Assembly: GCA_013178375.1 (NCBI GenBank)
Contig: JABLXQ010000004.1
Span: 1 to 64,000, forward strand
Direction of reading: 5' to 3'
Origin: Gammaproteobacteria bacterium
GTDB taxonomy: Bacteria; Pseudomonadota; Gammaproteobacteria; Pseudomonadales; Ketobacteraceae
Length of the DNA: 64,000 nt
The position numbers were made by a program, and so were the translations under genes. The notes under the pieces were generated by a model. That model made no database searches and was not told where the DNA came from. It worked only from the letters and a program-made list of their open reading frames with translations. Of the stretch, positions 30,115 to 37,694 are shown in pieces; position 1 is the first letter of the stretch, and the number at the start of each line of letters is the position of its first letter.

Positions 30115-32103
30115 TTACCAATGTACTCCGCGCATGATGTAGGCAAATGCCATCTGCTCCGGCGACACCACTGACGGCTGGGAATCGTCCTTCTTGCCCT
30201 GGGCCGCCGCCGAATCCGGGAACATGCGGAAGCCGGTGTTGATGATGATCTCGGCGAACTTCGGCGCCACCGCATGCACCACCTGACCGAACACACCCAA
30301 CTTGGTAGCAATGCGCTTGCTGCGGTAAATCAGCGCCTCGCCGACCATGTCCGCCGCCTCTTCCGGGCTGATGGTGGGCACGTTGTCGTAAATCTTGGTG
30401 GGCGCGATCATCGGCGTGCGCACCAGCGGCATGTTGATGGTGGTGAAGTGCACGTTGCAGTCGGAATATTCCGACGCCGCGCAGCGCGAGAACGCATCCA
30501 GCGCCGACTTCGATGCAACGTAGGCACTGAACCGCGCCGGATACGTCAGCGCACCGATCGATGAAATATTGATGACATGCCCGCTGCGATTCTTTTCCAT
30601 CACCGGCAGAAAATTCATCATCAGCCGCAGCGCGCCGAAGTAATTCAGCTGCATGGTGCGTTCGAAATCGTGGAAGCGGTCGTAAGACAGCGAGATCGAA
30701 CGGCGAATCGAACGGCCCGCGTTATTGATCAGCACATCGACGCGGCCGAAATCCGCCAGCACCTGCTGGGCGAAACGGTCGCAGTCTTCCATGTTGGCGA
30801 TGTCCACACTGTAGGTGAACGCCTCACCTCCGGCCGCTGCGATTTCCTCCTTGGTCTCTTCCAATTTCTCCGGCGTGCGAGCTGCCAGGATCACTTTGGC
30901 GCCTGCCGCTGCCAGCTTCAGCGCCGACGCCTTGCCAATACCGGACGAAGCACCAGTCACCACCACCACCTTGCCTTTTACCCGGCCTTCCAGCGTGCGG
31001 TCGATGAACAGTTCCGGGTCCAGATTGCGTTCCCAGTAATCCCACAGACGCCAGGCGTAAGTATCCAGGCGCGGGCAGCTGATGCCGGAACCGTCCAGCG
31101 CGGCGCGGGCATCTCGGTTGTCAAACTTGGTGTGGTACTGGGTGAATTTCAGCAGCGAACGGGGAATGCCCAGGTCTTCCAGCACCGTGTTGGTGATGCG
31201 TTTCACCGGCGGCAGCGTGCCCAGAGTCTGGCGCAGGAACGGCGGCATGAAGCTGAACATGCGGGTGTCGATGCGCATCGTCATCTGCGGCGCGTGGCCA
31301 GCGCGGGCGAAAATGTTGATCACTTCACCGATCTTGTAATGATCCACATCGGTGAGGTGGAAGCACTTGCCGTCCAGCCCGTCCTTGTGCGCCAGATAAT
31401 CCATGGCATCCACCACGAAATCCACCGGCACAATGTTGAAGCGCCCACCTTCGATGCCAATTACCGGCATCCAGGGCGGCAGCAGTTTGCGCAGTTTCTT
31501 GATCAGGCCGAAGAAATAATAGGGGCCGTCGATCTTGTCGATCTCGCCGGTTTTCGAATGCCCCACCACCATGCCCGGGCGATAAATACGGAACGGAATC
31601 TTGCAGTCCTTGCGCACGATGGCTTCAGAATCATGCTTGGTGCGCAGGTAGGGATTGTTGAGATTTTCCGCTTCCTCGAACATGTCCTCGCGGAAAATAC
31701 CGGGGTACATGCCGGCCGCCGCGATGGAACTGGTGTGATGGAAACAGCCGGCGGCCATTTCCTTTGCCACCTTCACCGCATTGCGGGTGCCTTCAATATT
31801 GGCGCTGACCTGCACCGCTTCCGGCGCCGACAGATCATAAATCGCCGCCAGGTGGAAAAAATGTTTCACTTTGCCTTTCAGCTTCGCCATGTCGTCGGCA
31901 CTGATCCCCAGCTTCGGCTGGGTGATGTCGCCAATTACCGGAATGATCCGGCCTTCGGTATCACCCACCAGGGATTTCAGCGTATCCAGTTTGCCGAGGG
32001 ATGCCTCGCGCATCAGCACATAAATGGTGCCCTGCCGCTTGAGCAGCTTTTCCAGTAAAAACCGTCCGATAAAGCCGCTGGCGCCCGTGACGAAATAAGT
32101 CAT
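30115..32103 (-). CDS. Bifunctional fatty acyl-CoA/ACP reductase (two fused SDR domains)
   Basis: A 662-residue two-domain reductase. The N-terminal half is a male-sterility-type acyl reductase: VTGASGFIG at 5-13, the IEGTRNAV region and YLRTK (Tyr152, Lys156). The C-terminal half, from about 375, is a classical SDR: TGASSGIG at 383-390, NNAGRS and YVASK (Tyr528, Lys532). This architecture and length match the alcohol-forming reductase of Marinobacter that converts fatty acyl-CoA or acyl-ACP through the aldehyde to fatty alcohol using NADPH; I recall strong similarity along the whole length. Start ATG 32103 has GAGGA at 6 nt. It is second in an operon after the wax ester synthase gene, supplying its alcohol substrate. 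Confidence 0.9.
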   Translation of the reverse strand: MTYFVTGASGFIGRFLLEKLLKRQGTIYVLMREASLGKLDTLKSLVGDTEGRIIPVIGDITQPKLGISADDMAKLKGKVKHFFHLAAIYDLSAPEAVQVSANIEGTRNAVKVAKEMAAGCFHHTSSIAAAGMYPGIFREDMFEEAENLNNPYLRTKHDSEAIVRKDCKIPFRIYRPGMVVGHSKTGEIDKIDGPYYFFGLIKKLRKLLPPWMPVIGIEGGRFNIVPVDFVVDAMDYLAHKDGLDGKCFHLTDVDHYKIGEVINIFARAGHAPQMTMRIDTRMFSFMPPFLRQTLGTLPPVKRITNTVLEDLGIPRSLLKFTQYHTKFDNRDARAALDGSGISCPRLDTYAWRLWDYWERNLDPELFIDRTLEGRVKGKVVVVTGASSGIGKASALKLAAAGAKVILAARTPEKLEETKEEIAAAGGEAFTYSVDIANMEDCDRFAQQVLADFGRVDVLINNAGRSIRRSISLSYDRFHDFERTMQLNYFGALRLMMNFLPVMEKNRSGHVINISSIGALTYPARFSAYVASKSALDAFSRCAASEYSDCNVHFTTINMPLVRTPMIAPTKIYDNVPTISPEEAADMVGEALIYRSKRIATKLGVFGQVVHAVAPKFAEIIINTGFRMFPDSAAAQGKKDDSQPSVVSPEQMAFAYIMRGVHW

Positions 32104-32154: not shown

Positions 32155-33525
32155 TCACACGTGCGACAACTGGCCCTGGAACGACGGGACTCCCAATACC
32201 GCGTTCTTGATCGAGGCGAATTCATCCACGAAATCGTCGATCATGGCCTGGGGATCGGGAATCAGCGCGGCGTCCGCGACAAAACCGAATTCCACCTTGT
32301 TGTCGTAACTCAGAATGCTCACGCCGATGCCGATGCCGCCGGACTGCGGCACCCAGAACATGGGCTTGGCCAATTTCTTACCCTTCAGGTATACCGGCTC
32401 TGCGGGACCCGGCACATTGGTCATCACCGCCGACGCCTTGCTGGAAAAGAAATCGAGAAAGAATTTTTCCACCGCGCGCGGAAAGAAACCGAGGATGCCC
32501 AGCACGTTGTAGCTCATCTGCGCCTGCACGCCGCTCTTGAGCTGGCGCATGGCCTGGCGCACGGCCTGAATGCGGCGCTCGATGGTGGGCTCGCCCACCG
32601 GCAGATTCAGGTACACCAGGCCAAAGCGGTTGCCCAGCTGCAGGGCGTCTTCGATGGGCCGCAGGTTCACCGGCACAGTGGCCCGCAGCTGCACACCATT
32701 GACCGGCTCGCCGATCCGCTCCAGGTAGCGGCGCAGACTGCCGGCCACACAACCCAGAATCACATCATTGATGGTGCAGCCCATGGCCTTGCTGACCTGC
32801 TTCACCTCGTTGATATCCAGCGACGGCGCCCAGCCCACCCGTTTGTGCGGAGTCAGCTTACGTTTGTACGCTGTTTTGGAATCCGGCCGGGCCAGGATCA
32901 CCCGCATGGCCTCGTACAGCCAGGCCAGGGAAAAGCCGGTATAGAAGACGGTGGACGTGAGCGCGAACTCTGCCCGGTGCAGCAGGGCATCAGAGCGAGG
33001 TTTGCGCTGGGGAAACTTGATATTGGCGGCCGGAGAACTGTGCAAAACAGATTTGTCGGCAATGGAATCCAGCACTGAAATCAAGGCGATACCGTCAGCA
33101 TAGCTGTGGTGCACCTTCACCATCACCGCTGTGCCGTCCTTGTATTTCGGTACGAAAAAGAAGCGCCACAACGGCTTGTCCGGGTCCAGCGGTGCCGGAA
33201 TCTGCCGGCTCACCGCCGCCCGGATCTCCGCCTCATTACAGCCTTCCTGCATCCCTTCCAGGGCAGACAGGTGGTATTCCATGTCCACCTGAGGCAACTC
33301 TTCCCACAGATACTGGTTGCCAAGCTGTACCGGCCGCTGCCGGAAACGCTTGTGCTGCCGGATCAGACGGTCTTCCAGGATCTCCTTGAAATCCGCGTAG
33401 CTCATCGGCTCGTCAAACATCAGCAAGCCATTGATCACCATCAGATTATCCGCTGAATCCATGCGCAGCCATGCGGTATCGACAACGCTCATGGGCTCCA
33501 GCGCCCGATTATTGGATGTCCTCAT
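32155..33525 (-). CDS. Wax ester synthase / diacylglycerol acyltransferase (WS/DGAT)
   Basis: A 456-residue member of the bacterial WS/DGAT family, which esterifies fatty alcohols or diacylglycerol with acyl-CoA to form storage lipid. The catalytic motif HHxxxDG is HHSYADG at residues 139-145. Other family blocks are PLDPDKPLWRF, ATVPVNLRPIE and VMTNVPGPAEPVYLKGKKL. Start ATG 33525 follows AAGGGA at 7 nt. The downstream reductase begins 51 bp after the stop. A predicted promoter with a FabR-like operator lies just upstream. Whether it prefers alcohol or diacylglycerol is not visible, but the neighbouring acyl reductase argues for wax esters. Confidence 0.92.
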   Translation of the reverse strand: MRTSNNRALEPMSVVDTAWLRMDSADNLMVINGLLMFDEPMSYADFKEILEDRLIRQHKRFRQRPVQLGNQYLWEELPQVDMEYHLSALEGMQEGCNEAEIRAAVSRQIPAPLDPDKPLWRFFFVPKYKDGTAVMVKVHHSYADGIALISVLDSIADKSVLHSSPAANIKFPQRKPRSDALLHRAEFALTSTVFYTGFSLAWLYEAMRVILARPDSKTAYKRKLTPHKRVGWAPSLDINEVKQVSKAMGCTINDVILGCVAGSLRRYLERIGEPVNGVQLRATVPVNLRPIEDALQLGNRFGLVYLNLPVGEPTIERRIQAVRQAMRQLKSGVQAQMSYNVLGILGFFPRAVEKFFLDFFSSKASAVMTNVPGPAEPVYLKGKKLAKPMFWVPQSGGIGIGVSILSYDNKVEFGFVADAALIPDPQAMIDDFVDEFASIKNAVLGVPSFQGQLSHV

Positions 33526-35195: not shown

Positions 35196-36086
35196 TCAGG
35201 TTGCCCGCTGCGGGGACAAGCGCGCCAGCCAGTGATCGCCCCAATAATACAGCAGCAGCCCGCTGCCAATAATGATCGCACCGGTAACCAGCGTCGGCGT
35301 AATGGGCTCCCCGTTCAATACCGATCCCAGTGTAATCGCCAGCACCGGCGTGACCAGCGTGGTCAGCGCCACCGTGCTGGCCGGCAGATGTTTCAACACA
35401 TAGAAATAACAGAAAAAGCCGATGAAAGATCCAAACAGTGCCAGGTACAGGATCGCACCCACGGTGCGCGGCTCCAGCGACTGGATATGCAATCCCATCA
35501 CCGCCGCCACCGCGCCGTACAGCGGCGTTGCCATCATCAGCGTGCCCACCGTCTGCGCCAGCGGATGCAGTACCGGCCCTTCCCGCTTGATCAGCACGCC
35601 ACTCAGGCAAAAACAGAACACACTGAACAACACCAGCGCGAATCCCAGCAGATTGCCATTCAGCAGCAGGATTTCGTGACGAAACACCACCACCAGCCCT
35701 GTCAGACCCAGCGCCATCGCCAGCCACTTGCTCGGTGAAAACGGCGGCTCGTTCAGCAGGAAACGCGACAGCACCGCCGAAATCACCGGCGACAGCCCGT
35801 ACAGAATCGAAATCAATCCCGACGGCATGAACTGCGCGCCAAAATACACGCACAGCAGCCCCAGAAACACACCGATATTGGAAAACGCATACACCCGCAC
35901 CGCCTGACGATGCCACGGCACCACCACACCCCACAGTCGCGCCAGCGCCCAGCCCAGCATCGCAGCCAGCAACACGCGCCCAAAGGCGCCAGCCACCGGC
36001 GACATTCCCTGGGAACTCCACTTCACACCCAGCGGCGTGGTGGACCATACAAAAATCACAACGATATAGGCGGCGGGCACCGACAT
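35196..36086 (-). CDS. EamA/DMT-family transporter (10-TM exporter)
   Basis: A 296-residue membrane protein with about ten hydrophobic segments in two EamA repeats. The first spans about residues 5-135 (SVPAAYIVVIFVWSTTPLGV to SPVISAVLSRFLLNEPPF) and the second about 150-285 (PVLAITLGSVLNGEPITPTL). The family exports amino acids, nucleobases or other metabolites by an antiport-like mechanism. AAGGAG lies 8 nt before the ATG. A 270-nt leader with an attenuator-like structure precedes the gene and may reveal its regulation. An overlapping frame in the same strand (35152-36048) is a shadow. Confidence 0.88.
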   Translation of the reverse strand: MSVPAAYIVVIFVWSTTPLGVKWSSQGMSPVAGAFGRVLLAAMLGWALARLWGVVVPWHRQAVRVYAFSNIGVFLGLLCVYFGAQFMPSGLISILYGLSPVISAVLSRFLLNEPPFSPSKWLAMALGLTGLVVVFRHEILLLNGNLLGFALVLFSVFCFCLSGVLIKREGPVLHPLAQTVGTLMMATPLYGAVAAVMGLHIQSLEPRTVGAILYLALFGSFIGFFCYFYVLKHLPASTVALTTLVTPVLAITLGSVLNGEPITPTLVTGAIIIGSGLLLYYWGDHWLARLSPQRAT

Positions 36087-36150
36087 GTCTTCACTCCTTA
36101 TTACCTCCTCTGTGATGCAGCATTTGCCTTTTGCCTGCGCCGGAAACGAA

Positions 36151-36187
36151 AAAGGCCGCAGGTTCCTGGAACGCTGCGGCCTCTTTG
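36151..36187 (-). terminator. Leader terminator (attenuator) upstream of the EamA gene
   Basis: On the minus strand AGGCCGCAG (36182-36174) pairs with CTGCGGCCT (36161-36153), followed by a U-tract of five. It lies 65 bp before the EamA ATG and downstream of a predicted promoter, so it would stop the leader transcript. A second copy of the distal arm (CCTGCGGCC, 36299-36291) in the leader can compete for the same partner, giving an antiterminator. Confidence 0.7.
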
Positions 36188-36206
36188 AAACGGTGGATGT
36201 GCTCTG

Positions 36207-36344
36207 TTACAAATCCGTTTCCCTCACCACAGCCGTTCCATTTGCACGCCAGACGCGGACTCGCGCACGGGTCATCGCACGGCATTTAATGGCCGCAGGC
36301 GATAGGGACGGTGCTGGAATGAGTGCTGTGATTTGGTATGTCAT
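36207..36344 (-). CDS. Putative 45-residue leader peptide of the EamA gene
   Basis: The frame runs from ATG 36344 to TAA 36207: MTYQITALIPAPSLSPAAIK, then CRAMTRARVRVWRANGTAVV and RETDL. It begins about 10 nt after the predicted -10, without a clear ribosome-binding site. The middle is rich in arginine codons (RARVRVWR). It covers the distal-arm copy CCTGCGGCC (codons for Pro-Ala-Ala) and ends 25 nt before the terminator stem. If translated, ribosome progress would decide which hairpin forms. The peptide itself may be fortuitous. Confidence 0.4.
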   Translation of the reverse strand: MTYQITALIPAPSLSPAAIKCRAMTRARVRVWRANGTAVVRETDL

Positions 36345-36352
36345 AGTTCTAC

Positions 36353-36382
36353 ACTATAGGCGGCCGCTAAAAACAGGGTCAA
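36353..36382 (-). promoter_or_regulatory. Predicted sigma-70 promoter for the EamA leader
   Basis: On the minus strand TTGACC (36382-36377) and TATAGT (36358-36353), 18 bp apart, both close to consensus. It gives a leader of about 265 nt before the EamA start codon. Confidence 0.55.
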
Positions 36383-36434
36383 ACCCTTTTTTGTAATTTC
36401 AGAAAAAATTCACGCAAACAATTTCGAAGTGCAT

Positions 36435-37694
36435 ATGAACATTTATCTGGTGGGTGGCGCCGTGCGCGATGAACTGCTGGGCATTCCCGGCAAGGACCGC
36501 GACTGGGTGGTAGTCGGCGCCACAGAACAAGCAATGCGGGATCAGGGCTTTACGCCGGTGGGCAAGGATTTTCCTGTTTTCCTGCATCCGGTCACCCATG
36601 AGGAATACGCACTGGCCCGCACCGAGCGCAAGAGCGGCCGTGGTTACACCGGCTTCGAATGCTACAGCGGCAGCGAAGTCACGCTGGAACAGGATCTGTC
36701 GCGGCGCGATCTCACCATCAACGCCATTGCCCGGCAGGACGATGGCACCCTCGTCGATCCCTTTCATGGCCAGCAGGATCTGCAGAACCGCTTGCTGCGC
36801 CACGTGTCTCCTGCCTTCGTGGAAGATCCCCTGCGGGTGTTGCGCGTCGCACGCTTTCTGGCGCGCTTTCACGATCGCGGCTTTCAAATTGCAGACGAAA
36901 CGCTGGCGCTGATGCGCGACATCGCCGCCAGCGGCGAACTGCAAACGCTGACGCCGGAACGGGTCTGGACCGAAACCGAAAAGGCCCTGCTGGAACCCTC
37001 GCCCTGGCGCTATTTCGAAGCCCTGCGCGACTGCGGCGCACTGGCAGTGGTATTTCCCGAGCTGGACAAACTGTTTGGCGTGCCGCAACCGCCCAAACAC
37101 CACCCGGAAATCGACACCGGCATTCATATGCTGCTGACATTGCAGGCAGCGCTGAAACTGATGCAGACTCACCCGCTGGAAAAAGCGGATCGCGTCGCCG
37201 TGCTGTTTTCGCTGATCTGTCACGACCTGGGCAAAAGCATGACCCCGGAATACAAATGGCCGAGTCATCCGGGACACGAGCCCATCAGCGCGCATCTGGC
37301 GGAAAAACTGTGTATACGTTTGCGTGCACCCAATCCGGTAAAAAGACTGAGCCTGCTGGTGTCTGAGTTCCACACCCACTGCCACCGTGCCTTCGAACTG
37401 AAACCAGCCACGGTGATGCGCCTGCTGGAAGCGCTGGACGCCTTGCGCCGGCCGGAAACATTGCCGCTGTTTCTGCTGGCCTGCGAAGCCGACGCCCGCG
37501 GCCGCACCGGCCTGGAAGATCGCGACTATCCGCAAGCCGACTATATTCGGGATTGCGCCGCCGCCGCGCGACTGGTGGAAGCCAAACCGCTGGTGGAACT
37601 GGGTTTCAAGGGCGAAACCCTCGGCATTGAATTGCGCAAGCGCCGCATAGTTGCGATTCGCGACGTCAAAAACTGCTATGTGAAAGAACAGTGA
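36435..37694 (+). CDS. cca: tRNA nucleotidyltransferase (CCA-adding enzyme) with HD domain
   Basis: A 419-residue multifunctional CCA protein that adds or repairs the 3' CCA of tRNA. The nucleotidyltransferase head is at the N-terminus: [14 protein letters not shown] with the metal-binding pair in KDRDWVVV, then [11 protein letters not shown]. Domains C/D continue to about 215, and an HD-type phosphohydrolase domain follows ([13 protein letters not shown], then [11 protein letters not shown]). ATG 36435 with GAAG upstream is preferred to GTG 36429, since relatives begin directly with MxIYLVGG. First gene of a run leading into folate genes. Confidence 0.93.

Follow-up and report, generated by a model that had tools for sequence, protein, structure and literature searches.

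A predicted leader-peptide attenuator with a conserved tryptophan codon upstream of an EamA-family transporter gene in Gammaproteobacteria

The window analyzed here is a 64,000-nucleotide stretch of contig JABLXQ010000004.1 from a gammaproteobacterium of the Ketobacteraceae. On its minus strand lies a gene (eamA; 35196–36086, with its ATG at 36086) coding for a 296-residue EamA/DMT-family transporter (Pfam EamA, E = 2.4e-31), which is preceded by a Shine-Dalgarno-like AAGGAG at 36094–36099 (minus strand) and is divergent from its neighbor cca (36429–37694, plus strand). DMT/EamA transporters are numerous and the substrate is mostly not known. The window protein matches three NCBIfam families, 2A78, YedA and YddG, below the cut-off of each (80.3 of 230.2, 65.9 of 270 and 24.9 of 300 bits, respectively), and no solved structure is related to it by sequence at E 0.01. 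Two other long frames on the minus strand, at 30115–32103 and 32155–33525, adjoin each other and presumably resemble a fatty-acyl reductase (SDR) and a wax-ester-synthase-type acyltransferase, respectively.

The region upstream of eamA contains a -35 hexamer TTGACC (36377–36382) and, after an 18-nt spacer, a -10 hexamer TATAGT (36353–36358) that ends 8 nt 5' of the ATG of a 45-codon leader open reading frame, MTYQITALIPAPSLSPAAIKCRAMTRARVRVWRANGTAVVRETDL (36207–36344); these and all the leader features below are on the minus strand. The two hexamers form the sole promoter-like match of the scan, with one match expected by chance, and TTGACC occurs at the same place in loci L009–L014. A 13-nt palindrome, AGGGTTTGACCCT (36375–36387), overlaps the -35 hexamer, and is probably a chance occurrence because it is broken in L009. 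The frame is followed by an intrinsic terminator hairpin, GGCCGCAG...CTGCGGCC (36154–36181), and five T residues (36153–36149). The promoter hexamers and their spacing, the GC stem with its T-run, the 45-codon frame and the downstream EamA gene were all described in an initial annotation of this DNA and are verified here, as are the two copies of CCTGCGGCC (36299–36291 and 36162–36154) and the central arm AGGCCGCAG (36182–36174). Within the 3' end of the leader frame is a candidate antiterminator 5' arm, TGGAACGGCTGTGGT (GGAACG-GCTGTGG, 36226–36240), and 11 nt 5' of it is a Trp codon at 36249–36251 (residue 32), the putative stall codon. In the antiterminator helix predicted for the window, from the folding of a chosen subset of leaders, positions 36240–36226 pair with 36180–36167 through 14 base pairs.

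Searching 57 genomes with the leader DNA showed the hairpin to be its best-kept stretch (query 241–288), and tblastn placed an EamA gene next to the leader match in 17 loci, the window included; in five of these (L015, L016, L019, L021 and L037) the sequence examined showed no cca. DNA similarity retrieved 16 relatives in which the terminator and the frame recur 5' of EamA, one of them (L021) having only a partial leader, and every one of the 16 leaders whose upstream sequence is long enough has a short frame ending 5' of the hairpin. In 390 genomes of the order, a hairpin covariance model (R1) matched 82 at E ≤ 1e-4, and EamA is present in 28 of the 30 R1-match loci fetched; in L059 the contig ends just past a leader of similar kind, and L058 resembles a usual terminator at the end of a gene. 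Weaker R1 matches were accompanied by EamA in six of eight loci fetched, and L232 and L234 also look like gene-end terminators.

Additional loci were gathered with an EamA protein profile (A3), from which 80 named contigs were taken – including those of Ketobacter, Colwellia, Thalassotalea, Paraglaciecola, Shewanella, Thiorhodococcus and Thioploca – and from 83 of 274 genomes of the class. Pooling all sources, 150 of 182 distinct upstream regions contain a terminator-like hairpin. The 32 that lack one by the rule used include eight from Shewanella, and in some of these 32 the rule missed a hairpin (compare L118). Eight of the 13 Shewanella regions (among L076–L141) fail the rule; GCCGCA hairpins are visible in two Shewanella regions, L088 and L102, and L244 has a hairpin whose T-run is displaced by 3 nt. 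The initial annotation had proposed that counterparts of the leader be sought upstream of EamA genes in related genomes, and such counterparts are present both in close relatives and throughout the class.

Across the phylum, 73 of 299 genomes also gave a match, of which the first 30 and a further 20 were examined. A terminator together with a leader frame containing Trp occurs in 21 of 28 new loci fetched, a count that leaves out L268, where the frame seems to be the tail of the preceding gene, and L266, where the hairpin is weak and distant. Eighteen of the 21 belong to a single family of another class (f231), six further loci of which are without the pair; in families f252/f257 the terminator and leader frame lie close to the gene in three of four loci. 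Many leader peptides in one family of another class (L241–L263) resemble MNTxxAHKKIAPFGWLVARR...LCPG, and their terminators are exemplified by CGGCCACGG...CCGTGGCCG. As a negative control, lower-scoring EamA relatives (f229, f235 and f239) were inspected, and the pair was found in none of 12 loci, with some hairpin in five, which counts for the attenuator reading. As judged from these comparisons, the predicted attenuator is common to EamA relatives across the Gammaproteobacteria and another class of the phylum.

The genes flanking eamA at loci L038–L147, taken crudely as the longest frame on each side and left unannotated, fall into many clusters, the largest of which comprises 24 loci and includes cca, with some genomes counted twice. 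The occurrence of the terminator before EamA in varied neighborhoods counts for the attenuator reading. Gene neighborhood was rejected as a clue, and no Trp gene was recognized among these neighbors, which counts against the Trp model given below.

In 129 of 138 leaders an ATG frame, 18 codons or longer, stops 12–48 nt 5' of the terminator, compared with 27.3 expected from dinucleotide shuffles; the 138 are those of the 182 regions that have a hairpin dG ≤ -10 and no less than 150 nt of upstream sequence. Differences at codon positions 1, 2 and 3 number 26, 42 and 54 in the eight leaders of the window's group and 344, 349 and 567 in f231, a third-position excess in both, the counts being drawn from pairs with at least 50% amino-acid identity that are not independent (the family of L070 was inferred, and L260 was left out). 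In an initial count the choice of frame favored those with Trp, and residues were recounted in the 110 leaders that have just one candidate frame. In 104 of these TGG is in frame, compared with 48 and 17 in the other two frames, and Trp is entirely absent from five; it is present in all eight leaders of the window's group and in all 17 aligned leaders of another class. The initial annotation had drawn attention to several Arg codons, and although Arg is in frame in 109 of the 110 leaders it also occurs in the other two frames in 102 and 92, and was rejected as the regulatory residue. The frame itself recurs in relatives, with Trp rather than Arg as the residue conserved in the leader peptide.

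In-frame Trp codons are most frequent 10–18 nt 5' of the antiterminator arm, where 44 of the 159 plotted lie, and neither out-of-frame TGG nor Arg shows a like peak. The spacing is loose, with a Trp codon at 6–22 nt in just 69 of 127 leaders (from the set of 129), and both counts are partly circular because the arm was located by best pairing. In 69% of 122 leaders TGG is followed by a C, which fits a hairpin around the Trp codon, such that part of the TGG conservation may reflect RNA structure, with RNA and codon constraints overlapping; this C accompanies the Arg that often comes after Trp. A small hairpin of this kind, P1, is predicted at 36246–36266 in the window, and its arms co-vary modestly (z = -3.88, 77 leaders). 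Taken on this comparative evidence, the putative regulatory codon ahead of the antiterminator arm is Trp.

In most leaders the best upstream partner of the terminator 5' arm falls within the final part of the leader frame. This upstream pairing is better than that of shuffled sequences at p < 0.05 in 37 of 70 leaders (of 72, with L055 and L056 left out), and a shorter antiterminator pairing in the window leader alone is not (p = 0.27), so the case for the antiterminator is a comparative one. When arms were swapped among 111 non-redundant leaders (125 of the 129, less near-identical regions), the mean pairing energy was -15.75 kcal/mol for a leader's own arms versus -13.38 kcal/mol for swapped arms (z = -11.25; none of 20,000 permutations as good), whereas a control stretch further upstream gave z = -0.93. 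These z values overstate independence because the leaders share ancestry, an effect that the swap design and control stretch limit but do not remove. The own arm is better than expected in 92 of the 111 leaders, and in the top tenth in just 32. Position 3 of the terminator is an A-U rather than a G-C pair in 23 of 107 terminators (107 of the 111 leaders) and in 19 of 107 antiterminators.

The antiterminator helix encloses a local hairpin with a 7-bp stem, GAAACGG/CCGTTTC (36187–36221), whose arms also co-vary (z = -8.79). No co-variation was seen for a protecting anti-antiterminator (1:2) stem, own versus swapped arms giving z = 0.54; this test and those of P1 and the enclosed hairpin used the 77 non-redundant leaders with a Trp codon 3–34 nt 5' of the arm. 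The mutually exclusive terminator and antiterminator of the initial annotation thus find support in co-variation, with a different upstream arm: the second CCTGCGGCC copy at 36299–36291 is absent from all seven close relatives checked and was rejected as a conserved arm, and it is the 36240–36226 segment that is retained.

In 45 of 84 leaders (of the 110) the best -10-like hexamer ends 6–8 nt 5' of the leader ATG, and Shine-Dalgarno-like motifs precede just five of the 84 leader ATGs as against 95 of 110 EamA starts, for which the motif set was slightly looser. These positions suggest that the leader mRNA is leaderless, starting at or next to the leader ATG, and if transcription in the window begins at the A of this ATG the leader would be 258 nt long.

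We are highly confident that an RNA switch, in which a predicted terminator and antiterminator exclude one another under the control of leader translation, exists upstream of eamA, and a ribosome translating a short peptide with a conserved Trp probably decides termination. Sequence comparison supports the predicted terminator and antiterminator, the coding frame, the Trp codon and their spacing. The explanation we favor, and consider reasonably likely as a whole, is a ribosome-controlled attenuator with a leaderless frame in which stalling at Trp turns eamA on. RNA polymerase would begin at or beside the leader ATG, and a ribosome that reaches the leader stop codon would cover the arm at 36240–36226, allowing the terminator (36181–36154) to form and leaving eamA off. 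A ribosome stalled with the Trp codon (36251–36249) in its A site would leave the arm ahead free to capture the terminator 5' arm, and transcription would enter eamA. The leading edge of a ribosome stalled in this way would just leave free an arm that is 10–18 nt ahead. With no conserved protecting 1:2 stem, the switch should also be on when the leader is untranslated.

We infer that the stall occurs at the Trp codon and that shortage of Trp-tRNA is the main signal, and we are less sure of the signal than of the switch. One conserved Trp codon would make a weak sensor, which counts against it; known Trp attenuators carry several. Export induced by starvation is also an odd logic, and likewise counts against the Trp model. 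The EamA protein would by this reasoning move Trp or a related solute, and may be an importer.

An unlikely but respectable alternative is that the same attenuator senses a general failure of translation (antibiotic, poor initiation on the leaderless frame, or starvation) rather than Trp-tRNA, with EamA exporting solutes that pile up once translation ceases. An untranslated leader predicted to be on, a frame that looks leaderless and the logic of an exporter all fit this reading, and the Bacillus subtilis resistance factor VmlR is reported to be controlled in this manner (PMC9226507). It does not, however, require the frame-specific conservation of Trp. Less probable again, and in our estimation improbable, is a nascent-peptide arrest like that of TnaC, in which Trp in the exit tunnel helps the ribosome to sense a small molecule. 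TnaC works through ribosome arrest at the stop codon and through Rho; a short peptide with one key Trp is common to both systems, and the single conserved Trp of the eamA leaders is often near basic and hydrophobic residues. However, the eamA leaders have an intrinsic terminator, the residues flanking Trp are not fixed, all three stop codons are in use, and the distance from Trp to stop is not fixed as in TnaC but varies widely, being mostly 5–21 residues. It is highly improbable that the leader is a riboswitch or protein-bound RNA and its short frame incidental: the RNA is structured with two alternative folds, but the coding signature and prevalence of the frame argue otherwise, as does the lack of an Rfam match, so that of the translation- or ligand-controlled attenuator first suggested the translational form is favored over the ligand-controlled one. 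An independent small gene or sRNA with a terminator at its end, from which read-through supplies eamA, could be made of the terminator and frame alone, but is scarcely credible given that the antiterminator co-varies with the terminator and the unit stays 5' of eamA in different neighborhoods.

The ribosome-controlled attenuator that we favor shares with amino-acid operon attenuators of the trpL, hisL and pheL type a leader frame before the terminator, a conserved codon ahead of the antiterminator arm and mutually exclusive folds, the last of these seen in the eamA leaders by prediction and co-variation. It differs in its DMT transporter target, its one Trp codon, the lack of a co-varying 1:2 stem and a frame that often looks leaderless; a 1:2 stem is present in many ribosome-mediated attenuators and not required of all. 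A precedent for a leaderless leader frame is the trpLE(G) attenuator (peTrpL/rnTrpL) of Sinorhizobium meliloti, whose transcript begins at the leader ATG and which likewise contains Trp codons and a terminator and antiterminator, but differs in having several Trp codons, a 14-residue peptide and a Trp biosynthesis target (PMC7298713); the two are likened by organization. In VmlR-type attenuators translation inhibitors act through a leader frame on a resistance gene, and as proposed here the state of the ribosome on the frame sets termination, but the eamA leader differs in its conserved Trp codon (PMC9226507).

No Rfam release 15 family scored above its gathering threshold in the window leader or in the loci of 19 relatives, in which there was just a tRNA elsewhere and a best sub-threshold E of 0.39; the comparison with Rfam suggested at the outset thus leaves the leader undescribed there. 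We found no description of an EamA leader attenuator in the open-license literature searched by title and abstract, and an earlier listing elsewhere is possible. Within the literature covered, the predicted eamA leader is a form of ribosome-mediated attenuation not previously described. It is widespread, and its putatively leaderless frame, single Trp codon and lack of a protecting stem depart from the textbook scheme. A conserved codon in a transporter leader would tell what the cell measures before making the transporter. We put forward only tentatively, at a little under even chances, the broader proposal that an ancient, default-on, leaderless, single-Trp attenuator without an anti-antiterminator marks one EamA clade, in at least two proteobacterial classes, as a Trp-related transporter.

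The region upstream of trpE in the window's own genome was inspected by eye and has no clear twin of the eamA leader. At this locus (L238, in genome C72) a frame with a GTG start ends in LRWRWRR and, nearer to trpE and with no T-run seen, there is an inverted repeat whose 29-nt arms match at 28 of 29 positions.
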